The notes under the pieces were generated by a model. It was not told the origin of the DNA and ran no database searches. It was given only the letters and a program-made list of their open reading frames with translations. A stretch of DNA of 61,498 nucleotides from Candidatus Woesearchaeota archaeon (GTDB lineage: Archaea; Nanobdellota; Nanobdellia; SCGC-AAA011-G17; GW2011-AR18): positions 1-61,498 of the forward strand of contig JACPCE010000004.1 in assembly GCA_016179945.1 (NCBI GenBank), read 5' to 3'. The position numbers and the translations under genes are program-made. Position 1 is the stretch's first letter; each line of letters begins with the position of its first letter. This document shows, piece by piece, positions 2,937 to 60,487 of the stretch.

Positions 2937-3704
2937 ATGCCTGAAGTATCTGAAAGAATTCACAGGGTTAACAATCCAACTTTAACCGGGGTTCTTGATG
3001 TTGGAGATTTTGTTTTTACACATTGTGGTACAAAAGGAGATTTTCCTACTTATGGTGTTATTGTTTATTTGTGGTCTGGTAGACCAGAACATGTAAGTGT
3101 GTATCATTATGGTTTAGGTTTTCCAACATTAATTGCTAGAAAACCTTCTGAAAGGACTATTAAAAAAGTTTCTAGAGATGAAGCACTTGAAGATTTTAGA
3201 AGAACATATCAAGGCATTCAAGCTGAATCAGATAGAAGAAGTCTTCCTAATCTTCAACGTGCTTTAGTGTCAAGAAGAGCTGATTACTTAAGACAAATAG
3301 TAGAATATTTAGATAGTGGAGGAGATAGTTCTAGTCTTGGCTTGTATCCTTCTAATAGTTTTATACCAAAGCAACCAGAAAGCACTAGTTATATTGTTAG
3401 ACCTTTATATCGTGGTAAGGGACAATATTATGGCAGTCTAAGTCTTTTAGGAAATAATGAATATTTTTATGAAGACCAATTTGATGATCCGAAACTTGAA
3501 GAGTTGATAGGTGTTACTACTGAGGAACATTATGATGAAAGATTTTTATCAGATTTATTACATAATTTAAGACCTAGAGGAATAGGGAAATTTGCTGGTA
3601 CTAAAGTAAATCCAATAATTGGCTACAAAGCATATGCAGTTCCAGAAGATAGTGCTGGTTTAGTTAAAGGTTACAAAGTTGTTCTAAGATTATTAGGAGA
3701 ATAA
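2937..3704 (+). CDS. Hypothetical protein, 255 aa
   Basis: Not recognised. There is no signal peptide and no membrane helix. The N-terminal part (GDFVFTHCGT, TYGVIVYLWSG, HVSVYHYG) reads as a small beta barrel with His and Cys residues that loosely recalls NlpC/P60 or CHAP folds, but a convincing Cys-His catalytic pair was not found. A charged middle (RRSLPNLQRALVSRRADYL) separates it from a C-terminal beta-rich part. The gene is monocistronic, with a TATA-like TATATAA stretch shortly before the start. Confidence 0.55.
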   Translation: MPEVSERIHRVNNPTLTGVLDVGDFVFTHCGTKGDFPTYGVIVYLWSGRPEHVSVYHYGLGFPTLIARKPSERTIKKVSRDEALEDFRRTYQGIQAESDRRSLPNLQRALVSRRADYLRQIVEYLDSGGDSSSLGLYPSNSFIPKQPESTSYIVRPLYRGKGQYYGSLSLLGNNEYFYEDQFDDPKLEELIGVTTEEHYDERFLSDLLHNLRPRGIGKFAGTKVNPIIGYKAYAVPEDSAGLVKGYKVVLRLLGE

Positions 3705-4908: not shown

Positions 4909-5592
4909 ATGATAACAAATCCAGATTTAAAAGAATTACACAGACTTTTAGCTAGATCTGAAGAATTTATTGAAATTAATGATGCTAAAAATGTTAAATT
5001 AAATATACCTGACTTAGGATTTTCTACATTATATTGCAGAAAAAGAGATCATTTAGTTGGCAGTGGAAAAAAGAGGTATTTGGTTGTTTTGATAGACAAA
5101 GAATTTCCTAATTTTAAAAGTGAAAAACATGTTGAATCATTTCTAAATTATGCTAGAGAATTAAATGAGAAGGGATATTATTTTGCTCCAGTATTAAAAA
5201 GCCCACCCTATTTAAGACATGATGGAAGAAGCAAATCAAGAGTTGAAATAGGTGATAAAAGATCAAGACATGTCAGAACTAAAGACATAGAAAGATTATT
5301 GATTAGAACTACAGAAAACAACTTGACTTATTATGTTCCTAATAGTGAAGAAAGCAAATTAATTTTAGTTTCTTTTGCATCTGTTCAATCTAGTTATGAT
5401 CATTTACCAGATGATCATGGAGCTAGAGTATTTGCTCCTGATGGAAGAACTTTGGAAAGAAGCATGCGTTATGATATAAAAACAAAATTTTATGACAGAA
5501 TTACTTTTGTTCCTGTTAAATCTAGAGGAAATTTAGCTATTGCTGCTAATAAAACAACAACTATTGAAGAAAGTCAACGTAGATTAATTTAG
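4909..5592 (+). CDS. Hypothetical protein, 227 aa
   Basis: Not recognised. It is a soluble protein with an N-terminal helical part (NPDLKELHRLLARSEEFIEIN), a KRYLVVLIDKEFPNF strand-rich core, a basic middle (HDGRSKSRVEIGDKRSRHVRTKDIERLLIR) and a final half with aromatic and Asp residues (SSYDHLPDDHGARVFAPDG). It converges on the sigma-factor gene with a 4-nt 3' overlap. A leaderless start is supported by the TATA box. Confidence 0.55.
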   Translation: MITNPDLKELHRLLARSEEFIEINDAKNVKLNIPDLGFSTLYCRKRDHLVGSGKKRYLVVLIDKEFPNFKSEKHVESFLNYARELNEKGYYFAPVLKSPPYLRHDGRSKSRVEIGDKRSRHVRTKDIERLLIRTTENNLTYYVPNSEESKLILVSFASVQSSYDHLPDDHGARVFAPDGRTLERSMRYDIKTKFYDRITFVPVKSRGNLAIAANKTTTIEESQRRLI

Positions 5593-6867: not shown

Positions 6868-7503
6868 ATGTCTGTATGCCTCATAACCTATGCTACATTT
6901 ATGAATCCCAGGTTATTTTCAGGATTGATTGGTCGTCTTGGTCATTCTACTAATATTTCTTATGATTTAGTATATGTCGCAGAACATCAGAGATTTTTTG
7001 GCTTTCCTGAAATAAGTGGTAAAATAATTTGTGATGTTTTTGATGATTCTGGTAAGGTAAAAATTCATGGACTTGGTGCTATGACTATTAGAGAATCTAG
7101 AAAAAATTGGTATAATGCAGTTTTGTATAAATATTTAGATGATGGACTTTTTGGAGAGTTAGATAGAATAGAAGGATCATCTTACTTAGTTAGAAAAAGA
7201 ATAGAAAAAGAACATATATTTAATTTTAGAGATAAATCTCCTTGGAACGAAACTACAGATGATATATATGTATATGAAGCATTAAAAGATATTCCATTAG
7301 AAGGTCGTAATTTACAATATGTTAGAAGAGGCATTGCTCCAAATAAAGATTATTTAGAAAAATGTAGAAATGGCCTTAGGCTTCATAGTTGTGCTTTTAG
7401 ACAAGAATTTGAGAGAACTACTTTTTTAATAGGGAAAGGTAATAACTCTAATGCTTTCTCTTTGGAAGATAGTGTGTTTTCAATAAATAATAGAATGTTT
7501 TAA
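6868..7503 (+). CDS. Divergent GGCT-like protein
   Basis: A 211-residue cytoplasmic protein. The start MSVCLITYATFMNPRLF resembles the YGTLM(N/D)P opening of gamma-glutamylcyclotransferase-like proteins, and YLDDGLFGELDRIEGSSYLVRKRIE resembles the conserved LDxxEG.YxR core. The tail of about 50 residues after the barrel is not explained. The start is supported by a TATA-like GCTATAAATT stretch about 20 nt upstream. The fold assignment is by eye and the substrate is unknown. Confidence 0.55.
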   Translation: MSVCLITYATFMNPRLFSGLIGRLGHSTNISYDLVYVAEHQRFFGFPEISGKIICDVFDDSGKVKIHGLGAMTIRESRKNWYNAVLYKYLDDGLFGELDRIEGSSYLVRKRIEKEHIFNFRDKSPWNETTDDIYVYEALKDIPLEGRNLQYVRRGIAPNKDYLEKCRNGLRLHSCAFRQEFERTTFLIGKGNNSNAFSLEDSVFSINNRMF

Positions 7504-7530: not shown

Positions 7531-7653
7531 GGGGATGTAGTATAACTTGGTTCAGTATAGGGGCCTCCAGTAATGGAAATATGAGCTGTAAAGCGATGAT
7601 ATTATTTTTTGAGAAGAAAGCCTCGGATCAGGGTTCAAATCCCTGCATCCCCA
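7531..7653 (+). tRNA. tRNA-Trp (CCA) with 48-nt intron
   Basis: The acceptor stem GGGGATG (7531-7537) pairs perfectly with CATCCCC (7646-7652), with discriminator A at 7653 and no encoded CCA. The D-stem is GTAT/GTAT, and the T-arm is CAGGG-TTCAAAT-CCCTG. The anticodon stem GGGGC (7560-7564) pairs with GCCTC (7620-7624), and anticodon CCA lies at 7567-7569. A 48-nt intron (7571-7618) interrupts the canonical 37/38 position. The central BHB helix (CTCC with GAAG) has one C-A mismatch, so the motif is relaxed. The intron is too short to be the box C/D guide known in some archaeal tRNA-Trp introns. Confidence 0.9.
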
Positions 7654-7705: not shown

Positions 7706-8752
7706 ATGAGATTAGAAAATCTAGTTAGGGGTATTGTGAGTTCATTTATATTAGCTATGCCATCAGCATGCACTCCAAGCAAAGGCTCTATTCAGGATAT
7801 TAAGGAACATCAAGTTGAAAGAAAACAAAAGGGCTTTAATTTTGTTTCGTGGAAATCTGAAGAATATGAAAATTTATACTCAGATAATTCCTTGGAAGAA
7901 ATAAAGTTCCTTGGTAGTAATTTTGTTGCTTTAACTCCTATTCATTTTCAGGATGGAATTAATTCAACATTAATTTATTCACTTCATGGAACTACTTCAA
8001 CTTACTCTGCTTTAAGACATGCTATTGAAAAAGCGCATAGACTTGGAATAAAAGTTATGTTAAAGCCGCATATAGAATTAAAAGATGGAAACTGGCGTGC
8101 TATGATAAATTTTTCAAGTGATTATGAATATAGAATGTGGTTTTATAATTATCAAAGGTTAATAGTAGAATATGCAAAATTTGCGCAAGATAATAGTGTT
8201 GAACAAATTTGTATTGGAACTGAACTTGATGGCTTAACTTCTAGAGATGGAGACTGGCGTAGATTAATAAAAGAGATAAGAAATGTATTCAAAAGTAACA
8301 TAACTTATGCTGCAACATATAGCAATGCAAGATTTGTAAATTGGTGGAATGATTTAGATTTTATAGGTATAAATGCTTATTTTGAATTAACAAATAAACA
8401 AGACCCAAGCCCTTTAGATTTGTACAATTCATGGGTTGTATATTTAGATGATATTAAATTACTCTCAGATAAATATAAAAAAGATATTATATTTACAGAA
8501 GTTGGCTATAGAAGCTTGAATGGCACAAACAAAGCACCATGGGATTTTCTTTCTCAAGGAACAACAGATCTTGATGAACAGAAGGATGCATATGGTTCAA
8601 TATTTTGGTCTTTTTGGGATAAATCTTGGTTTAGTGGTGTTTATTTCTGGGCATGGGAAGCAAATCCAAAAAACACCCATGTGCTTGATAATGGATATAG
8701 TCCTAAAGGAAAACCAGCTGAAATCCATTTAATGGATTGGTTTAATAGATAA
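7706..8752 (+). CDS. Secreted GH113-like glycoside hydrolase (lipoprotein)
   Basis: A 348-residue TIM-barrel enzyme resembling GH113 beta-mannanases. The likely catalytic pair is Glu173 in ICIGTELDG (acid/base) and Glu265 in IIFTEVGYRS (nucleophile). GINAYF and WAWEAN are further barrel-strand features. The N-terminus has a hydrophobic stretch ending ILAMPSAC, a lipobox-like site with Cys22, so the enzyme is probably anchored outside the cell. A TATA-like AATTTAAAC about 30 nt upstream supports the start. It would cleave beta-linked hexose polymers, and the substrate is inferred only from the family. Confidence 0.8.
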   Translation: MRLENLVRGIVSSFILAMPSACTPSKGSIQDIKEHQVERKQKGFNFVSWKSEEYENLYSDNSLEEIKFLGSNFVALTPIHFQDGINSTLIYSLHGTTSTYSALRHAIEKAHRLGIKVMLKPHIELKDGNWRAMINFSSDYEYRMWFYNYQRLIVEYAKFAQDNSVEQICIGTELDGLTSRDGDWRRLIKEIRNVFKSNITYAATYSNARFVNWWNDLDFIGINAYFELTNKQDPSPLDLYNSWVVYLDDIKLLSDKYKKDIIFTEVGYRSLNGTNKAPWDFLSQGTTDLDEQKDAYGSIFWSFWDKSWFSGVYFWAWEANPKNTHVLDNGYSPKGKPAEIHLMDWFNR

Positions 8753-27489: not shown

Positions 27490-29131
27490 AATCCCATTGA
27501 TCCTGTGGGAGATTGCTGCTATTGGGATCCGACTAAGCCATGCAAGTCATAGGGGTAGCAATACCACTGGCATAAGGCTCAGTAACACGTCGATAATTTG
27601 CCCTTAGGTCTGGGAAAACCTCGGGAAACTGAGGCTAAACCTAGATAAGAAAAAGATACTGGAATGTTTTTTTTCTAAAAGGCAACGCCTAAGGATAAGT
27701 CGGCGGCTGATTAGGTTGTTGGTGAGGTAATGGCTCACCAAGCCTAGGATCAGTAGGGGGGATGAGAGTCCTAGCCCCGAGAAGGGCACTGAGATACTGG
27801 CCCTAGCCCTAAGGGGTGCAGCAGGCGCGAAAACTCTGCAATGCACGAAAGTGTGACAGGGGGATCCCAAGTGCTTTGTCTTCGGATAAAGCTTTTATTA
27901 AGTCTAAATAGCTTGGTGAATAAGTGGTGGGTAAGACGGGTGCCAGCCGCCGCGGTAACACCCGCGCCACTAGTGGCAATCACTTTTATTGGGTCTAAAG
28001 CGTCCGTAGCCGGTTTAATAAGTCTCTTGTGAAATTGTTGGGCTTAACCTAACAACGTGCAAGAGAAACTATTAGACTTGAGACTGGGAGGAGGTAGAAG
28101 TATTCTAAGGGTAGCGGTAAAATGTTATAATCCTTGGAGGACTACCAGTGGCGGAGGCGTCTACCTAGAACAGGTCTGACGGTGAGGGACGAAGGCTAGG
28201 GGAGCAAAACGGATTAGATACAAGAAATTTTCTGAGAGTAAATTTCTGTACAGGCAAGTAAAATTGATCAATAAAAAACTACTTTATTTGTTAAGATGCA
28301 GAAATTAATATGGAAATTTGCTTGCTAAGTACCCGAGTAGTCCTAGCAGTAAACTCTGTGAGCTATGTGTTGCACAATCTTAGTGATTGTGCAGTGCCTA
28401 AGCGAAGGTGTTAAGCTCACCACCTGGGAAGTACAGTCGCAAGACCGAAACTTAAAGGAATTGGCGGGGGCTCACTACAAGGGGTGAAGAGTGCGGTTCA
28501 ATTGGATTCCACGCCGGAAATCTCACCAGGGGCGACGGCAATATGAAGGTCAGATTAAAGGTTTTACCTAATGCGCCGAGAGGTGGTGCATGGCCGACGC
28601 CAGCTCGTGCCGTGAAATTCCGTTGTAATATTCCAATGAATCGATCAATATAGTTACAACTTGATTCGGTAAAGGTGTCACGTTAAGTCGTGCAACGAGC
28701 AAGACCCATATCCGCTTTTACCAGCAGGTACTATGGTACGACTGGGTACAATGCGGAGACTGCCTCCGTAAGGAGGAGGAAGGCGTGGGCAACGTTAGGT
28801 CCGTATGCCCCGAATCTCCTGGGCTACACGCGCTCTGCAATGGTGGAGACAATGGGATGCAACTCCGAAAGGAGAAGCAAATCCTCGAAATTCCATCTTA
28901 GTCTGGATTGAGGGTTGTAATTCACCCTCATGAAACCGGAATCCCTAGTAATCGGGCTTCATTACGGCCCGGTGAATAACGTCCCTGAGCCTTGCACACA
29001 CTGCCCGTCAAACCAACCGAGCATGGCTTAGATGAGATATAGTTTTTTGATTATATCGAATCTGAGTTAAGTAAGGTGGGTTAAGTCGTCACAAGGTATC
29101 CGTAGGGGAACCTGCGGATGGATCACCTCCT
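27490..29131 (+). rRNA. rrs: 16S ribosomal RNA (with a 111-nt intron)
   Basis: The 5' end has TTGATCCTG at 27498, the 530 loop GTGCCAGCCGCCGCGGTAACACC lies near 27940, the archaeal signature AAACTTAAAGGAATTGGCGGGG near 28449, and the 3' end GGATCACCTCCT carries an anti-Shine-Dalgarno that matches the GGAGG sites seen in this window. The end coordinates are estimated from conserved sequence. Without the intron the length is about 1530 nt, slightly long for archaea. The gene is the first of a 16S-tRNA-Ala-23S operon; no 5S is linked. Confidence 0.97.
28220..28330 (+). other. Archaeal BHB intron in 16S rRNA (about position 793/794)
   Basis: The conserved GGATTAGAT stops at 28219 and ACCCGAGTAG resumes at 28331. 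The junction folds as a strict bulge-helix-bulge: TTAG (28214-28217) pairs with CTAA (28325-28328), the 3-nt bulges are AT^A (28218-28220) and GT^A (28329-28331), and the inner helix CAAG (28221-28224) pairs with CTTG (28321-28324). Cutting after the second bulge nucleotide on each side restores GGATTAGATACCC exactly. It is too short for a homing endonuclease gene. Confidence 0.92.
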
Positions 29132-29137
29132 TTTTAT

Positions 29138-29164
29138 GATCTTAAACTACTTCTATTGGTGCTC
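29138..29164 (+). other. Pre-16S processing stem, 3' arm
   Basis: GATC, ACTAC (29146-29150), TCTATTGG (29152-29159) and GCTC are complementary, in order, to the upstream arm at 27439-27465. Confidence 0.8.
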
Positions 29165-29219
29165 ATATTTTATATTCAAATGGGCTCGTAGCTCAGCCCG
29201 GTAGAGCATCTCCCTTGCA

Positions 29220-29262
29220 TAAAACTTTTTGGGAAAAAGTTTTTTCAAAATGTGATCAAGGT
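29220..29262 (+). other. tRNA-Ala intron 1 (37/38), contains repeat hairpin copy A
   Basis: A 43-nt intron with a strict BHB. Inside it AAAACTTTTT (29221-29230) and AAAAAGTTTT (29234-29243) form a perfect 10-bp hairpin with loop GGG, followed by TTCAAAA. This is the first of four related hairpins in the rRNA operon. Confidence 0.88.
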
Positions 29263-29284
29263 AGGAGGGGGCCGTGGGTTCGAA

Positions 29285-29323
29285 AATAACAATGGGTTTA
29301 TTACAAATCCTTGTATCGAAGAG
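29285..29323 (+). other. tRNA-Ala intron 2 (T-loop, 59/60)
   Basis: A 39-nt intron. The TTCG/CGAA central helix, an AA^A bulge and an inner helix (ACAA 29289-29292 with TTGT 29311-29314) support it. The 3' side between CGAA and CCCAC is GAGT, one nucleotide longer than a strict bulge, so the exact cut may shift by one. Confidence 0.8.
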
Positions 29324-29369
29324 TCCCACCGAGTCCATTCACACTTTTAAAAAAACTGTGATTAAAAAT

Positions 29370-29386
29370 AAACTTTGAAAAAGTTT
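29370..29386 (+). repeat. rRNA-operon hairpin repeat, copy B
   Basis: AAACTTT and AAAGTTT pair over 7 bp with loop GAA, followed by GAGCAAAAAA. It lies in the spacer between tRNA-Ala and 23S. Confidence 0.7.
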
Positions 29387-29431
29387 GAGCAAAAAAGAAA
29401 TTACACATCATATTAACCAATTCATAGGTTA

Positions 29432-29453
29432 CAAGTTTTTAGGAAAAAGCTTG
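29432..29453 (+). repeat. rRNA-operon hairpin repeat, copy C
   Basis: CAAGTTTTT and AAAAGCTTG pair over 9 bp (one T-G wobble) with loop AGGA, followed by AGTAAAAATAAG. It lies in the spacer, 45 nt after copy B. Confidence 0.7.
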
Positions 29454-29521
29454 AGTAAAAATAAGAAATGAGGCTCGTCAACAAAAGTTACGGGTTGATC
29501 GGATTAAACATCATGTTTAAC

Positions 29522-29545
29522 CGGTGCATAGATTCTTGTATATTC
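29522..29545 (+). other. Pre-23S processing stem, 5' arm (24 bp)
   Basis: These 24 nt pair without gaps with 32635-32658 downstream of 23S; the only non-Watson-Crick pair is one G-T. TTAA on the outer side extends the stem after one mismatch. Confidence 0.88.
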
Positions 29546-31219
29546 GGTCCTACTAAGCCATTAGACGGATGACTTGGCTCAGGTTAAGATGAAGAGCGTG
29601 GCAAGCAGCGATATGCTCTGGGTAGGCGCATGCAGCCATTGAACCAGAGATGCTTGAATGAGACTTCTTATCCTTCGGGATGATTAGTAATAATATATAA
29701 CGCAGGGAATTGAAGCGTCTTAGTACCTGCAGGAAAAGAAATCAATTGAGATGCCGTAAATTATCAGCGAGAGAAAGCGGTGTAGAGCAAACTGAATCCT
29801 CGTAGAAATACGTAAGGAGATGTGGGGTTATAGGACTTGTATTTAGTCTTCATTTTTATATGCCAAAACTTCTGGAAAGAAGTGCCATAGAGGGTGATAG
29901 CCCCGTAGGTGTGAAAAATAAGATGAACGAGTATCCTGAGTAGGGTTTGTTGGAAATCAAGCCTGAATTTGGGAGGCACTAACTTCCAACTCTAAATATA
30001 AACCTGAGTCCGATAGATTACGAGTACCGTGAGGGAAAGTTGAAAAGAACTCGTGGAAGAGAGTAAAAAGCTCCTGAAATCTAATGGTCATAGTATGTTA
30101 CTGCTCTAAGGAGTTGTAACGTACGTTTCGAATAACGGGCCGGGGAGTGCATTTCAGTGGCAAGGATAAGGCTATTAAGGCAATATCCGTAGGGAAACCA
30201 ATAGTTCGCAACTTGTGAGGAACAATGTATGAAAATGCTTTAAGTCACTGGAGTGTGACCCGAAACCGGGTGATCTAACCTTGGGCAAGGTGAAGCAGGG
30301 GTAAAACCTTGTGGAGGCCTGAAGAGGTTCTGTGTGCAAGCGTTCTTCTGACTTAAGGTTAGGGGTGAAAGGCCAATCGAACCCGGTGATAGCTGGTTCC
30401 TACCGAAATGGGCCGCAGTCCAGTCCTCGAGGAGATAGTTAAAGAGGTAGAGATACGGATTAGGGGTTTAGGCTTCGAAAGGAGTCGATCTCTTGTCCAA
30501 CTCCCAATGCTTTAACATCGTAGAATTGAGGAAACGGCGTTACTGGGGTAAACCTGTAATGCTAGAGGGGAACAACCCAAGACTGTAGTTAAGGTCCCTA
30601 AATATTGGTTAAGTGTTAAAGGGTGAAGGATGTTTATTACCGAATACAGTAGGGAGGTAGGCTTAGAAGCAGCCATCCTTTAAAGAAAGCGTAACAGCTC
30701 ACCCATCTAGGTGATATGCTCCTAAAATGGACGGGGCTAAACCAATTACCGATACTACAGATCGCCTTGTATAAGGTGTGTGGTAGGTAGGTATTCTATG
30801 TAGGCAGAAGCTTCTGCGTAAGCAGGAGTGGACTGCATAGAAATAAAAATCCCGGCAGTAGTAGGATCGATACAGAGTGAGACTCTCTGATACCGAAAGG
30901 GCAAGGGTTTCTTGGCCATGTAAGTCAGCCAAGAGTTAGTTGATCCTAACTTTAGAATTTTAATTGATTCAAGGGAAAGGGAAAACGGTTAATATTCCGT
31001 TACCATTCAAATACGTGCGGCAACGCAAGCTATAGGATAGACATTTCTGGCTAGGCTAGCACTTACTGTCGTGAGTGTTAATTAGGATAAATCTTGGGAG
31101 TAATGTAATGTTGAGAACAAGATTAAACTGAGAATAGCAGGCTTATGCTTGTCTAGTTTATGCCTGGAATCACTGAAAATGTCTTATAGAAGGATTTTGA
31201 ATGATCATACCCAGAACCA

Positions 31220-31250
<31 letters not shown>

Positions 31251-31522
31251 TAGGAGGGAGTAATCTAGCTAAGGGAACTCGGCAAATTAGCCCCGTGCCT
31301 TTGGTGTAAGGGGTCCCTGCGTTTGTGTACTTAAGTATGCAAATACAGGGTGCAATAACAAGGGCGGTCCGACTGTTTACCAAAAACACAACCTCTCGCA
31401 AGTCCGTAAGGATTAGTACGCGAGGTGACGTCTGCCCAGTACCAGTAATTCAAACCTCTTTTCAAGGAGGCTAAGATCTGGCAAACGGCGGGAATAACTA
31501 TGATTCTCTTAAGGTAGCGAAA

Positions 31523-31695
31523 AGACAGTTAGTTCGTGCAATTAAAATCTGCAATAAACTTTTATAAAAAGTTTGAACAAAATATACTGTATTTCATGCG
31601 CGCAAGAGTGGAGTTATTTCTAAAGTTGGGTTTATAAAATTAATTTGGTTTGCAAATTAGTTTAGTTCATAATCAAAGAACTAACTGTTGCGCAG
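31523..31695 (+). other. Insertion/intron in 23S rRNA domain IV (about 1927-1931)
   Basis: It separates AAGGTAGCGAA from TACCTTGTCG, which are contiguous in other 23S rRNAs. An 11-bp perfect stem (ACAGTTAGTTC 31525-31535 with GAACTAACTGT 31678-31688) closes it, and AAGGTA (31511-31516) pairs with TACCTT (31696-31701) outside. The central helix GCG/CGC with an adjacent A-G mismatch makes a relaxed BHB, so the cut sites are uncertain by 1-2 nt. There is no ORF inside. Archaeal 23S introns are known in this region. Confidence 0.8.
31556..31574 (+). repeat. rRNA-operon hairpin repeat, copy D (inside 23S insertion)
   Basis: AAACTTTT and AAAAGTTT pair over 8 bp with loop ATA, followed by GAACAAAA, matching the spacer copies. 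Confidence 0.7.
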
Positions 31696-32634
31696 TACCT
31701 TGTCGTTTTAATGACGACGCGCATGAATGACGTAACGAGACCGCTACTGTCCCTAGCTAGAATCCCCCGAATACACTCTTCCGGTGCAAAGGCCGGAGTC
31801 CTCTAGTGGGAAGTAAAGACCCCGTGAAGCTTTACTGCAGTTTATCGTTGTGATGTGGGATTAGCTGTGCAGCGTAGGTAGTAGTTGTTTGATGGTTCAG
31901 ATGCAAGTTTGAACCTAGACAAAGTTGAGACACTACCCTTTTAATTCTACGTCACTAACTTTCGAAAGAAAAAACAGCGGTAGATGGACAGTTTGGCTGG
32001 GGCGGCACCCTGCTGAAAATGTATCAGTAGGGCCCAAAGGTCAGCTCAGGAGGTTTAGAAATCCTCTGTGGAGCGCAAGAGCAAAAGCTGGCTTGACTGT
32101 GTTCTGAAAAGTAAAGAACGCAGGGTGGAAACACGGGTCTAGCGAACCCTTATGCCCTTCTTGGTGGGGGCTAAGGATGACAGAAAAGCTACTCCGGGGA
32201 TAACAGAGTTGTCGCGCCTAAGAGCTCAAATCGACGGCGCGGTTTGCTACATCGACGTCGGCTCTTCCTAACCTGGCCGTGCAGAAGCGGCCAAGGGTGG
32301 GGGTGTTCACCCATTAAAAGGGATCGTGAGCTGGGTTCAAAACGTCGCGAGACAGTTTGTTCAATATCTGCTAGAGGTGTTGGTGTCTGAGAGGAAGGAT
32401 CATCTAGTACGAAAGGAACGGTGATTCGGTGCCTCTGGTGTATCAGTTGTCTGACAAGGCAGGCTGAGCAGCTACGCACCAATGGATAACAGCTGAATGC
32501 ATCTAAGCTGGAAACCAACCTCAAAAAGAGACACCTTCCTAGAGCTCTTCTAAAAGAGAAGATTGATAGGATCGGGATGTAAGTACCAAGGCAACGAGGT
32601 ATTAAGTCTGCGATTACTAATCGCTCGAGGGATA

Positions 32635-32658
32635 GAATATACAAGAATCTGTGCACCG
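32635..32658 (+). other. Pre-23S processing stem, 3' arm (24 bp)
   Basis: Complementary to 29522-29545 over all 24 positions (one wobble). Confidence 0.88.
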
Positions 32659-48608: not shown

Positions 48609-49338
48609 TTATTTCACACCCATATTCCAAACAATATTGAAATAATTTCTAAATGCCTCTGCTGCTTCTTTACTTTCAATTAGAAAACCTATCGGCGTTT
48701 CAGTCCATACAATTATTGCTACGTTATCACCAAAAATTAAAGTAGCTGTCGGACTATCAAATTCTTTTGGTAGAAACCTGACATCTGAAATCTTAGTATC
48801 TCCCATTGGTGTTCCTTTCATTCTTTCAGAAACTATTAGCCTTGTTTTGATCTTCAATTTCTTTTTTCTTTTTTGAAACTGGTGAACCTAAAGTCTGTCT
48901 AAATCTTCCATGGCTTCCAAAAACCCAGTTTTCTTTATATCTTAACACCATTTCATAAATAGATTTAACAGCTTTCTTTCCTACAAAAATATGTGCTTCT
49001 TGTTTGCTCAAAGCTGATTCTTTTATCTTTTCCAGCTCTTTTACTAAATCTTCTGTACTTTGCTTTTTTTGTTTTAATTTTTGTTCTTCTTCAAATACGA
49101 AATCAAGAAATCTATTGGGATTTGTAGCTTGAAAATATCTAGTTTTTTGTTTTGTTATATAATTTACTAGGCCTTTTTCCATCAATCTTTTCAAAATATC
49201 ATATACAGTTGCTCTGTGTAGTTCAGATTTTTTAACTAATGGTCCTGTAGTTGTAGAACCTAATTTAAGAAGTTCTAAATATACTTTGGCTTCTGTTTCA
49301 GTAAGCCCTAGTTTCTGCATTATATTAATTCTATCCAT
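48609..49338 (-). pseudogene. TrmB-family regulator, frameshifted in an A-rich tract
   Basis: Two frames make up one TrmB protein. The upstream part (48826-49338) has the full winged HTH (LGLTETEAKVYLELLKLGSTTTGPLVKKSELHRATVYDILKRLMEKGLV) and linker. The frame is lost in the A-rich run near 48858-48868 (KKKKEIEDQNK instead of KKLKIKTRL). The downstream part (48609-48857) continues the effector domain to a normal end similar to the intact homologue at 32731. The cause could be a real mutation, assembly error, or slippage on the A-run. The gene is divergent from the ABC transporter it probably controls. Confidence 0.8.
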
Positions 49339-56490: not shown

Positions 56491-57183
56491 TTAATGTATT
56501 AATAAGCCATATTTTCCATCTATAGTAGGACCCCTATTTACTCTATCAACCCCTGAATATATTATATGGATTACATTGCCTGGATTTTCATAAGAAACAA
56601 CAAAAACTTCTAATTGATCTGCCAACCTCATAGTTCTCATCTTACTGTTCTTTCTTTTACCTGCACCCCTTAACCATCCAATCATACCATTATAATTAAA
56701 GCCTTTACCATTATCTTCTATTGTTATTATATGGCCTTCATGTCCTTCGTCAATTATCAATCTTACTTCATCTTTACTTCCATATAAAAAAGCATTTTCT
56801 AACAAACCACTAATTAATGCTTTTAATACCGGGGGTGTTCTTTTTGGTCTCAACATCACATATCCAATATCATGCAATTTACTTTCTAATTCTCTTAATT
56901 TTCCTATACTTTGTGGATTTCCAAATCTCAGACTATGTAAGATTTGCTCTCTTCTACTAGCAAGCTCAATGCTTCTTTCCTCTAGAAGCCTACTTACACC
57001 TAATGTATATAGTGAAGGACTGTCATAATTAGCTTCTCTTTGTTCATAAAATCTTGATCTTCTTTCCACATTTGCAGGAAATAAAGATTTTTCTGAATAA
57101 GGTTTTATTACATCAAACAATATTCTATTATTTACACCAACTCTTGCATACATATCACTAAGATTAAGATTTTCAAATGTCAT
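56491..57183 (-). CDS. Orphan GHKL (histidine-kinase-type) ATPase
   Basis: A 230-residue protein. The C-terminal half is a HATPase_c domain: N-box SGLLENAFLYGSKDEV, G1 box EDNGKGF and a later R-x-G-x-G-like LRGAGKRKNSKMRTMRLADQL. The N-terminal helical part (RRSRFYEQRE, LEERSIELASRREQILHSL) could be a dimerisation region with a His, but no phosphotransfer H-box is clear. No receiver gene is adjacent. It could be an anti-sigma-type kinase (RsbW-like), which fits a genome with an ECF factor, or a one-piece sensor. Confidence 0.75.
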   Translation of the reverse strand: MTFENLNLSDMYARVGVNNRILFDVIKPYSEKSLFPANVERRSRFYEQREANYDSPSLYTLGVSRLLEERSIELASRREQILHSLRFGNPQSIGKLRELESKLHDIGYVMLRPKRTPPVLKALISGLLENAFLYGSKDEVRLIIDEGHEGHIITIEDNGKGFNYNGMIGWLRGAGKRKNSKMRTMRLADQLEVFVVSYENPGNVIHIIYSGVDRVNRGPTIDGKYGLLIH

Positions 57184-57280: not shown

Positions 57281-57889
57281 ATGCCAGGAAAAAAAGAATC
57301 TTTAGAAATAGTACTAAGATATTTTGATGCTGTTTTTGTAGATTCTTCTTTCATGACATATTTAGGAAGAAGTGAAGGATTTTATAGTGTTGATAAAAGA
57401 CTTTTAGACAGAGCGTTAGAAGTATGGAGAGAAAATAGTGGGCTTTTTAGAAGATATAATGAAGAATTAAAAGTTTATACAACAAATGGTATCATACAAG
57501 AATTAAATGAATTTGCACTTGCTTTAGAGGAAGCTTCTTATAAGAAAAAGCAGACATTAAGAGCTAATAAACTAAAAAGTATGTCTGATTTAGTTAAGGA
57601 TACAGCTGATACATTAATAGTTTATCCCTTTAGAGCCTATATTCAAGTTGTCAGATATGATGGAGCTTCTGATAATGATATTTCTTTAATATCTGCTATG
57701 CTGCATTTTTTAGTTGATAACAATCGCAGCACCAGCACAATAATTACTAAAGACAGTGATATAAGCAAAAGTTATGGCCTTACAATATCGGGATTTGATG
57801 AAGGATTGAGAGCTAATATTTCAAGAAGAGGAAAAATTTATTGGTATGATTATAAGCAAAATTTACTAGAAAAAGTAGTTATAAATTAA
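57281..57889 (+). CDS. PIN-like nuclease-fold protein, divergent
   Basis: A 202-residue protein. The arrangement resembles a PIN domain: VFVDSSFMTYLG at the start, Glu in TTNGIIQELNEFALAL, Asp in SDNDISLISAMLHFLV, and Asp residues in TIITKDSDISKS. A coiled insertion (YKKKQTLRANKLKSMSDLV) separates the halves. It is not next to an antitoxin, so a toxin role is not supported. It is divergent from the GHKL ATPase. Confidence 0.6.
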   Translation: MPGKKESLEIVLRYFDAVFVDSSFMTYLGRSEGFYSVDKRLLDRALEVWRENSGLFRRYNEELKVYTTNGIIQELNEFALALEEASYKKKQTLRANKLKSMSDLVKDTADTLIVYPFRAYIQVVRYDGASDNDISLISAMLHFLVDNNRSTSTIITKDSDISKSYGLTISGFDEGLRANISRRGKIYWYDYKQNLLEKVVIN

Positions 57890-58005: not shown

Positions 58006-58818
58006 CTAAGTTTTAATTTCAAACCATATTAAATAATGATCACTATGCTCTTTATTTATAGATTTGTCTATTCCATAATTAGTAATTTGACTTTTTAAGT
58101 TATCACTAACTATAATTCTATCATAAGCACAGTTTGTTTCAGATACAGTTGTGTCTTCATTATCTTGAATTATCCAGTTCCAATTATCAAATTCATTTTC
58201 TTCTTTGTTATTATAATAAGAACAATCTGCATTCAAATCACCAATAACTGCAGTGTAATCATTATTTTTTACTATTTCATCTAAATAATATAATTCATTT
58301 TTTACATCATCTGGTTTTATATGAATATTAAACAAGGTTAAGTTATAATTATTTAAATTGAATTTTACTTCAATAGGTGGCCTTTCCCACCTATCTAATT
58401 TATCTGGATTGTAATCTTCTATTAATTCAATTTTAACTCCTTTCTTTACTAAAATTCCATATTGTTCTTTTGATATAGTTCTGCCAGCTCTTGTGGAGAT
58501 ATAGCAATTATATTTATCTAAATAAGAACAAAGCTTTGGAAATGCACCTTCTGAAGAATCTCTAATTTCTTGCAAAAATACAATATCATAATTTTTTATT
58601 TTATTAGCATAATAATTCATTAAATCTAAATTACTGGCTTTTGAATGTCCAAATACTTGTAGATTCCAATTTGCTATTTTTATTGTATCTTGATAATTAT
58701 TTATTTGAGGATTTATTTTAACTGCACTGGCTGTTATATTATCTTTTAAATTATCTTTGTAGTAATAAGTAATTAATACTAGAATTAATATTACAAATAA
58801 CACCTTTTTTTTCATCAA
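58006..58818 (-). CDS. Secreted endonuclease/exonuclease/phosphatase (DNase I-like)
   Basis: A 270-residue protein with an N-terminal signal anchor (KKKVLFVILILVLITYYY). The EEP motifs are complete: IKIANWNLQVFG, IVFLQEIRDS (metal Glu), FNIHIKPDDV, AVIGDLNADCSYY, CAYDRIIVS and the final SDHYLIWFEI (catalytic Asp-His). It is probably a membrane-tethered or released nuclease acting outside the cell, for example in DNA scavenging. The gap 57890-58005 holds no gene. Confidence 0.88.
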   Translation of the reverse strand: MMKKKVLFVILILVLITYYYKDNLKDNITASAVKINPQINNYQDTIKIANWNLQVFGHSKASNLDLMNYYANKIKNYDIVFLQEIRDSSEGAFPKLCSYLDKYNCYISTRAGRTISKEQYGILVKKGVKIELIEDYNPDKLDRWERPPIEVKFNLNNYNLTLFNIHIKPDDVKNELYYLDEIVKNNDYTAVIGDLNADCSYYNNKEENEFDNWNWIIQDNEDTTVSETNCAYDRIIVSDNLKSQITNYGIDKSINKEHSDHYLIWFEIKT

Positions 58819-58919: not shown

Positions 58920-59444
58920 ATGGATATTGGTGCTTATTTGAGGGCTTTGAAGGCATGTCCTGATCCTGATTTAACTGATAATCTAGGGATTTATGACAAT
59001 TGGCCAATATTATTAGATGTGGATACTAATATCTTTATAGATTATTTAAGGAACTGTGAAAAATATAGTGAAAAATCACAAAATGTAAGCAGAGAAATTG
59101 CTGAGGAAGTTGCTGCAAGTGGTAGATTAAGTGCTGCTAGAATATTAAGGAAAGGGAAGGGGGTTTATTTTGATTATGGCAAAAGACTAGCTAAATTTAG
59201 AGTTTCAAGGGGTTTAATACTTGAATTCTGTAGCAAAGATGAACCACATAGAACAAAACAGTTAGCTAAAGAATATAGAACTACAGTATTACTTCATCCT
59301 TATGCAATGAATGGAAACTGGACAAGAAATTTAGCAGATATTGTTGTTGACATTGGTGAGTATGCTCAAAGAAGCAAGGTTGGTCTTTGTTTTCCAAAAT
59401 CTATAGGTTCTAAAAATAAGGAGGTTGTTTATTACGAACCTTAA
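58920..59444 (+). CDS. Hypothetical protein, possibly PIN-like, 174 aa
   Basis: The segment WPILLDVDTNIFIDYLRNC looks like the first strand and helix of a PIN domain, and NWTRNLADIVVDIGEYAQRSKVGLCFPKS could supply later acidic positions. The centre is basic (RLSAARILRKGKG, DYGKRLAKFRVSRG). The assignment is weak. It begins the short operon that continues with the LysM-M15 gene 2 nt downstream. Confidence 0.45.
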   Translation: MDIGAYLRALKACPDPDLTDNLGIYDNWPILLDVDTNIFIDYLRNCEKYSEKSQNVSREIAEEVAASGRLSAARILRKGKGVYFDYGKRLAKFRVSRGLILEFCSKDEPHRTKQLAKEYRTTVLLHPYAMNGNWTRNLADIVVDIGEYAQRSKVGLCFPKSIGSKNKEVVYYEP

Positions 59445-59446
59445 AA

Positions 59447-60487
59447 ATGAGAAAACTAATTCCTTTTATTGTTGGATTGTGTACTGTTGTTGGATTAAGT
59501 TGTGGAAGGACAAGTATTACTAGAAAATCTACAGGAGATGGCGGAGGTTCACAAGCAGAAAAAAACTATTACATAGTAAAGAAAGGCGGCAGTATAGATG
59601 ATATTGCTAAAAAAACAGAAATTCCTGCATGGTCTATATTAAATTGCAATCCTGAATTAGATGAAAATACAAAATTCGGACCTGGAGAAAAAATTAAACT
59701 TTATGAAAAATATTATGAGATTCAACCTAATGATACATTATATGGAATTGCTTTACAAAATCATGCAAATTATGGCGCTTTAATAGATCTTAATAATATA
59801 GAAAATCCTGATTTAATATTAGCTGGCGATAAATTGAGAATTCCTTGTCCTGGAAAAAAATCAAAACATAAATTGGAAAGAGAGGAAAAAAATCATGCAT
59901 ATATAGAAAGAAAAGAACCAAGAAAAACTGGCTATGTTGTTTTTCCTAGCGGCTTAAAACTTCAAATTGTCAATGATCCTAAATTAACTAGGAAAGGAAA
60001 AGAATTTTATGATCCAAGAAGCTCTGGTAATCCATTATTTAAAGTTGAAGTTAAAGATTTAGGAAGGGCTGTTTCTAGACATTTTACTTTAGGTGACTTT
60101 CTTGAAATACATGTGCCTAGATTGGAATCACCCAATTATAAACTAAAACTTAATGGCGATGAGTATTTTGCTTATGGACGTTTAGATCCTGATTTTGTAG
60201 GAAGATTAGAAAAAACTAGGACTTGTGTAGGTGAACCTATAGAAGTAGACTCAGGTTATAGACCTTGGGGTTATCACAAAAGGATTTATCGAGATATATA
60301 TGGAAAAATGGAAACAAAGAAGAGTTTACACCCTTCAGGTATGGCAGCTGATATTTCTTCAAGAAGCACTAGAAGATTAAATAGATGTGTTGCTGATATA
60401 TTTAATAATAGTGGTATTGGCACTTATGATGATGAAGGTTTTGTGCATGTAGATAATAGGAAAGGAAAGGCTCGCTGGTCATTATGA
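59447..60487 (+). CDS. Lipoprotein with two LysM domains and M15A peptidase
   Basis: A 346-residue protein. A short signal ends at a lipobox (VVGLSC, Cys19). LysM repeat 1 is at about 41-86 (YYIVKKGGSIDDIAKKTEIP) and LysM 2 at about 90-133 (YEIQPNDTLYGIALQNH). The C-terminal domain (about 205-346) is a peptidase M15A fold with SGYR (269-272), the zinc ligands His295 and Asp302 in HPSGMAADI, and His334 in FVHVDNR. In bacteria these cut or bind peptidoglycan cross-links. Archaea lack murein, so a foreign or host wall is the likely target. Confidence 0.9.
   Translation: MRKLIPFIVGLCTVVGLSCGRTSITRKSTGDGGGSQAEKNYYIVKKGGSIDDIAKKTEIPAWSILNCNPELDENTKFGPGEKIKLYEKYYEIQPNDTLYGIALQNHANYGALIDLNNIENPDLILAGDKLRIPCPGKKSKHKLEREEKNHAYIERKEPRKTGYVVFPSGLKLQIVNDPKLTRKGKEFYDPRSSGNPLFKVEVKDLGRAVSRHFTLGDFLEIHVPRLESPNYKLKLNGDEYFAYGRLDPDFVGRLEKTRTCVGEPIEVDSGYRPWGYHKRIYRDIYGKMETKKSLHPSGMAADISSRSTRRLNRCVADIFNNSGIGTYDDEGFVHVDNRKGKARWSL

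Follow-up and report, generated by a model that had tools for sequence, protein, structure and literature searches.

A putative murein peptidase with LysM and M15 domains in a woesearchaeal genome that also encodes a class A PBP

The window, by which we mean the whole stretch of 61,498 nucleotides analysed here (Candidatus Woesearchaeota archaeon, assembly GCA_016179945.1, contig JACPCE010000004.1), contains an archaeal gene whose product combines a signal peptide, two LysM domains and an M15 peptidase domain with conserved zinc ligands. We consider it fairly likely that this LysM-M15 protein is exported, is probably tethered to the surface, and acts as a peptidase on murein made by another cell. 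Since no capacity of the archaeon to produce murein precursors is apparent, production of the substrate by another organism is the most likely reading. However, the archaeon's genome encodes a class A penicillin-binding protein (PBP), which counts against this reading, as the LysM-M15 protein might instead serve a murein-like layer on the archaeon's own surface.

Results

Domain organisation and catalytic site

The gene lies at positions 59447-60487 of the window, on the forward strand like all of its features described below, and is an uninterrupted ORF with an ATG start encoding 346 aa. As the original prediction had read from the letters of this region, Pfam detected both families: LysM in two stretches (E 1.3e-16 over the whole protein), and Peptidase_M15_3. 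Taken alone, LysM 1 (59570-59698) scores 20 bits, slightly below the 20.9 cut-off of PF01476, and LysM 2 (59714-59845) scores 48 bits. LysM 1 contains a C67-N-P motif whose cysteine is invariant in the LysM-bearing members of the family, and LysM 2 is followed by the equally invariant Cys134; with one such residue per LysM, Cys67 and Cys134 are likely to form a disulfide. A conserved segment 'FPSGLKLQIVNDP...SGNPLFKVEVKDLGRAVS' (59924-60064), specific to the archaeal LysM-M15 family, then precedes the catalytic domain (60077-60484).

The Pfam score of the catalytic domain, 24.3 bits, is marginally above the threshold of 23.2, and scores among relatives in the family reach 54.3 bits. The domain was aligned with 31 other M15 domains from archaea, bacteria and phages. 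The zinc-site pattern His-x6-Asp ... His-x-Asp is present (H295, D302, H334 and D336), and His295, Asp302, His334, Ser269, Arg272, Ser293 and Asp336 are invariant across the 32 sequences. The three zinc ligands, encoded at 60329-60331 (His295), 60350-60352 (Asp302) and 60446-60448 (His334), are therefore intact, as originally claimed.

The AlphaFold2 model of the full-length protein was poor (pLDDT 68.8), and its fold search was significant for LysM only. In contrast, residues 160-346, modelled with the 32 sequences, gave a pLDDT of 92.7 and a pTM of 0.88. The 19 best PDB matches of this second model in Foldseek were all M15 enzymes, followed by related hedgehog domains; 1LBU came first (E 1.9e-3, probability 1.00), and Ply500, LdcB, VanXY/VanY, LysB4 and ChiX were also among the top M15 matches; TM-scores were modest (0.28-0.37 by query). 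The model supports membership of the catalytic domain in the M15 family. We infer the metal geometry of the site from its residues, not from coordinates, and the predicted activity is a zinc-dependent cleavage of murein peptides, which could be of the D,D- or L,D-endopeptidase or the carboxypeptidase type.

Export and candidate lipid anchor

The protein starts with a signal peptide (59447-59503) that ends in a candidate lipobox, V-V-G-L-S-C, with Cys19 encoded at 59501-59503. This lipobox fits the relaxed pattern only, its Gly at -3 and Leu at -2 being atypical. All family members that were read have N-termini resembling signal peptides, and those of the relatives lack the Cys. The window's own genome has an Lgt (PF01790, 218.8 bits; G000:C11:9315-10025, ORF L065:6307-7083) among archaeal-looking genes, and a bacterial-type Lgt was found in all 10 of the related genomes tested; the archaeal genomes that served as controls in that search had none. 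The original description of the protein as secreted and lipid-anchored gains from the signal peptide and from the presence of Lgt in the genome, but its second part is only plausible, given the relaxed lipobox and the missing Cys in relatives. Lipid anchoring, if real, is specific to the member in the window, and the other members look freely secreted.

Genomic context

Complete archaeal 16S (27490-29131) and 23S (29540-32640) rRNA genes share the contig with the LysM-M15 gene (forward strand, 27490-32640 together), so the gene is archaeal and does not sit on a stray bacterial contig. Its base composition, GC3 and codon usage match those of the other window genes. A foreign codon usage was considered and rejected, as Arg codons and GC3 are the same as elsewhere in the window.

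An orphan ORF of 174 aa (58920-59444, forward strand) ends 2 bp before the start of the LysM-M15 gene and is probably co-transcribed with it. Further upstream, the DNase I-like ORF that had been put forward as a functional companion is present (58006-58818), but it is divergently transcribed relative to the LysM-M15 gene, and no relative of it adjoined an M15 gene in the regions compared. A common operon of nuclease and peptidase was therefore rejected, and the proposed partnership does not hold as a conserved arrangement.

Other features of the window were recorded independently. Arg-rich ORFs, mostly without a Pfam match, occur at 1828-2289, 2937-3704, 4909-5592, 6868-7503, 56491-57183, 57281-57889 and 58920-59444; their Arg/(Arg+Lys) ratio is about 0.5-0.7, compared with about 0.25 for typical genes, their codon usage is unchanged, and similar ORFs exist in other members of the class. 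The GH113 glycosidase encoded at 7706-8752 has a signal peptide and then a Cys (MPSAC), and is possibly another surface-anchored hydrolase. Rfam identifies a 123-base tRNA gene at 7531-7653 that was missed by ARAGORN and probably contains an intron, and two TrmB-like ORFs overlapping in different frames at 48609-49338 are possibly one frameshifted regulator gene.

Distribution and relationships of the family

Among 279 genomes of the phylum, a protein search found relatives, complete or partial, in ten, one of them the window's own genome. By profile search of 378 genomes of the class, the LysM-M15 family was clear in seven (G000, which is the window's own genome, G059, G339, G042, G081, G084 and G139), with many weaker LysM or M15 matches besides. 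The named relatives are Woesearchaeota, and proteins made of a signal peptide, two or three LysM domains and an M15 domain are patchily distributed within the class. Full-length members are about 31-39% identical and have in common the signal peptide, the two or three LysM domains, a charged linker, the 'FPSGLELxIVTDP...SGNPLLKV' segment and the M15 domain. No viral relative of the whole protein or of the family was found.

Two genomes of the same genus as the window, G339 and G059, hold shorter versions that lack LysM and adjoin ribosomal protein genes. The G339 copy is intact (207 aa) and occupies the same place as the G059 copy, which is frameshifted, as is the family member of G139; these frameshifts reflect either a gene that is dispensable in places or assembly errors. 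They could be taken, together with the 73.8% completeness at which the window's own genome (a MAG) is rated, to favour a decaying or misassigned gene without present function, arising from contamination or from recent unselected transfer. We regard this as very improbable, because the archaeal rRNA genes lie on the same contig, codon usage and GC3 match the window, and intact copies exist in several genera, including the one beside ribosomal protein genes in G339.

A tree of 38 M15 domains, with thin bacterial sampling, placed the eight sampled archaeal members of the family in one group (98/97 support), apart from the sampled domains of bacteria and phages. In another archaeal genome, G112, a protein (L023:6893-8503, reverse strand) joins a SleB-type Cell Wall Hydrolase domain (Hydrolase_2) to an M15_3 domain. 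The latter grouped among phage and bacterial domains in the same tree, which suggests a separate acquisition.

Murein-directed partners and the nature of the substrate

Two genomes with a homologue bear on what the family acts upon. In G084, a GH25 lysozyme gene (L021:1095-1889, reverse strand, Pfam E 6e-34) starts 7 bp downstream of the LysM-M15 homologue and encodes a protein with a twin-arginine-like signal, so that the two form a pair of muramidase and peptidase; the same region of this contig also holds a GatE-like gene (read by eye). This lysozyme is found only in G084 among the 10 genomes, the window's own genome having no match. In G042, which also has a LysM-M15 gene, the gene of a lytic transglycosylase (SLT) with a Tat/lipoprotein-like signal and that of a class A PBP are arranged head to head (L167:6184-9450). 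Because the GH25 of G084 and the SLT and PBP of G042 point to murein, murein is the substrate that we favour for the LysM-M15 protein.

The LysM part is consistent with this choice, as it matches bacterial murein-binding LysM structures such as that of the T. thermophilus NlpC/P60 endopeptidase. LysM is also able to bind pseudomurein and chitin (cited in PMC12352652), which would suit a protein directed at another GlcNAc polymer or wall, be it the pseudomurein of methanogens, chitin or the archaeon's own glycoprotein coat, with LysM serving for adhesion and M15 trimming other peptides. Matches of the LysM profile to chitin-binding LysM proteins of fungi and plants whose structures are solved agree with such a target. 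However, the matching M15 enzymes of solved structure are murein peptidases, and the lysozyme partner of G084 likewise argues for murein. Pseudomurein, moreover, has no D-amino acids. We consequently judge a target other than murein improbable.

An orphan class A PBP in genomes where no precursor genes were found

Searches of the window's own genome with Mur_ligase_M and EPSP/MurA gave no match at its 73.8% completeness, and no Mur ligase was found in the same-genus G059, which is rated 100% complete. This precursor search consisted of the Mur ligases and, in the own genome only, MurA. Mur-ligase matches in other genomes bearing the family or a PBP were all FolC and were rejected as signs of murein synthesis, so that no Mur ligase other than FolC was found in any PBP-bearing genome checked.

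In contrast, a transpeptidase search matched both the own genome and G059. The corresponding class A PBP is encoded by ORF L148:1723-4755 on contig C7 of the own genome, with its G059 counterpart at L149:2627-5131. The own protein scores 137.8 bits for GT51 and 37.4 bits for the transpeptidase, has PBP1a as its best PDB match, and retains the motifs EDRNYYSH, ITEQ, STVK, SNN and KTGT, that is, the catalytic Glu, SxxK, SxN and KTG. Contamination is unlikely for this PBP, since its gene, like that of G059, has archease-like genes on one side and archaeal EF-1alpha on the other. The original premise of an organism without murein was accordingly only partly borne out, in that Mur ligases and MurA were not found but a murein polymerase is present in the own genome and in G059.

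Of the 378 genomes of the class, 12 exceeded the GT51 cut-off, and five of these belong to the window's own family. No Mur ligase was found in G004, which consists of one contig, is rated 100% complete and encodes a full protein of the PBP1A family (582 bits, exceeding the curated cut-off). A PBP1A in G132 was discounted as a probable bacterial contaminant, being carried by a 7.3-kb contig (G132:C43, L163) with a bacterial-type EF-G. The M15 family and a PBP co-occur in G000, G059 and G042, an overlap of three genomes from two genera; the Fisher p is 0.0008 when genomes are counted and 0.017 when genera are, with small numbers and related genomes.

These data allow a reading in which the LysM-M15 protein remodels a murein or murein-like layer polymerised by the archaeon's class A PBP from the lipid II of a bacterial partner, or acts at the contact zone, the cutting of cross-links allowing growth, release or resealing of a breach. 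Intact PBPs in the same place in the own genome and G059, their recurrence in the class and in the window's family, the overlap with M15 and the head-to-head PBP and lytic transglycosylase of G042 all favour it. However, the lack of Mur ligase in the PBP-bearing genomes checked, G004 included, means that precursors would have to be imported, and most M15-family genomes have no PBP, the overlap itself resting on few and related genomes. We therefore hold such remodelling to be unlikely, and keep the cutting of another cell's murein as the preferred reading, simple predation being less certain because of the orphan PBP.

Discussion

The proposal originally made for this gene, a murein-directed secreted peptidase in a DPANN-like cell, accords with the LysM and M15 domains, with the GH25 partner in G084 and with the precursor pathway not being found, and its mechanism may be pictured from sequence as follows. 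The protein would first be exported by Sec, and the own member would then probably be lipidated by Lgt at Cys19. Its two LysM domains would bind the GlcNAc-containing glycan of murein, and the M15 zinc domain would cut D-amino-acid-containing stem peptides or cross-links. The wall of a bacterial partner or prey may be loosened in this way at the contact site, target organism and purpose being conjectural.

A broader scheme, which we advance only tentatively, would accommodate the PBP as well. Some DPANN archaea that do not make murein precursors would open the wall of a partner with LysM-M15 proteins, lysozymes and lytic transglycosylases, and also use class A PBPs to polymerise and cross-link the partner's lipid II, either resealing the breach or building a borrowed patch of murein. 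A strong link has been described between GT51 and the occurrence of murein, and a 2012 survey of 101 archaea found the minimal set of murein genes in none of them (PMC3541169). In the open-access literature, which was partially covered, we found no report of a class A PBP or GT51 in DPANN or Woesearchaeota.

By itself, the LysM-M15 gene is a further member of an emerging theme, that of archaeal murein hydrolases. The picture is changed by finding a murein peptidase together with a class A PBP in a single archaeal genome, with no precursor pathway detected. If these archaeal PBPs are functional, there are archaea that come into contact with bacterial murein or borrow it, and the question of which organisms DPANN archaea live on becomes testable, with bacterial partners expected and a response to beta-lactams or labelling by fluorescent D-amino acids possible.

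Among characterised enzymes, MepK / DUF882 and the Streptomyces Zn DD-peptidase (1LBU) share the catalytic domain and zinc-ligand pattern of the LysM-M15 protein, which in contrast to them adds LysM domains and the family-specific segment; its score against the MepK NCBIfam equivalog is 27.3 bits, far below the cut-off of 185. Closer in lineage are the woesearchaeal murein transglycosylases for which 'vampirism' was proposed in 2022 (PMC9723730). Insofar as the accessible part of that paper describes them, they belong to the same broad lineage and have the same proposed target, but they are GH23 glycosidases concerned with degradation only, whereas the LysM-M15 protein is a peptidase.

Finally, modular archaeal murein hydrolases, patchily distributed and prominent in Nanoarchaeota, were described in 2025, and some were shown to kill bacteria (PMC12352652). 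The LysM-M15 protein resembles these enzymes (e.g. Woldo) in being secreted, in joining a wall-binding to a murein-cleaving domain, in its patchy distribution and in belonging to an archaeon without known murein of its own. The main text of that study does not name M15. Woldo and its like combine PG_binding_1 with M23, whereas LysM and M15 are combined here, and the present case further differs by a candidate lipid anchor and by a genome that adds a class A PBP.
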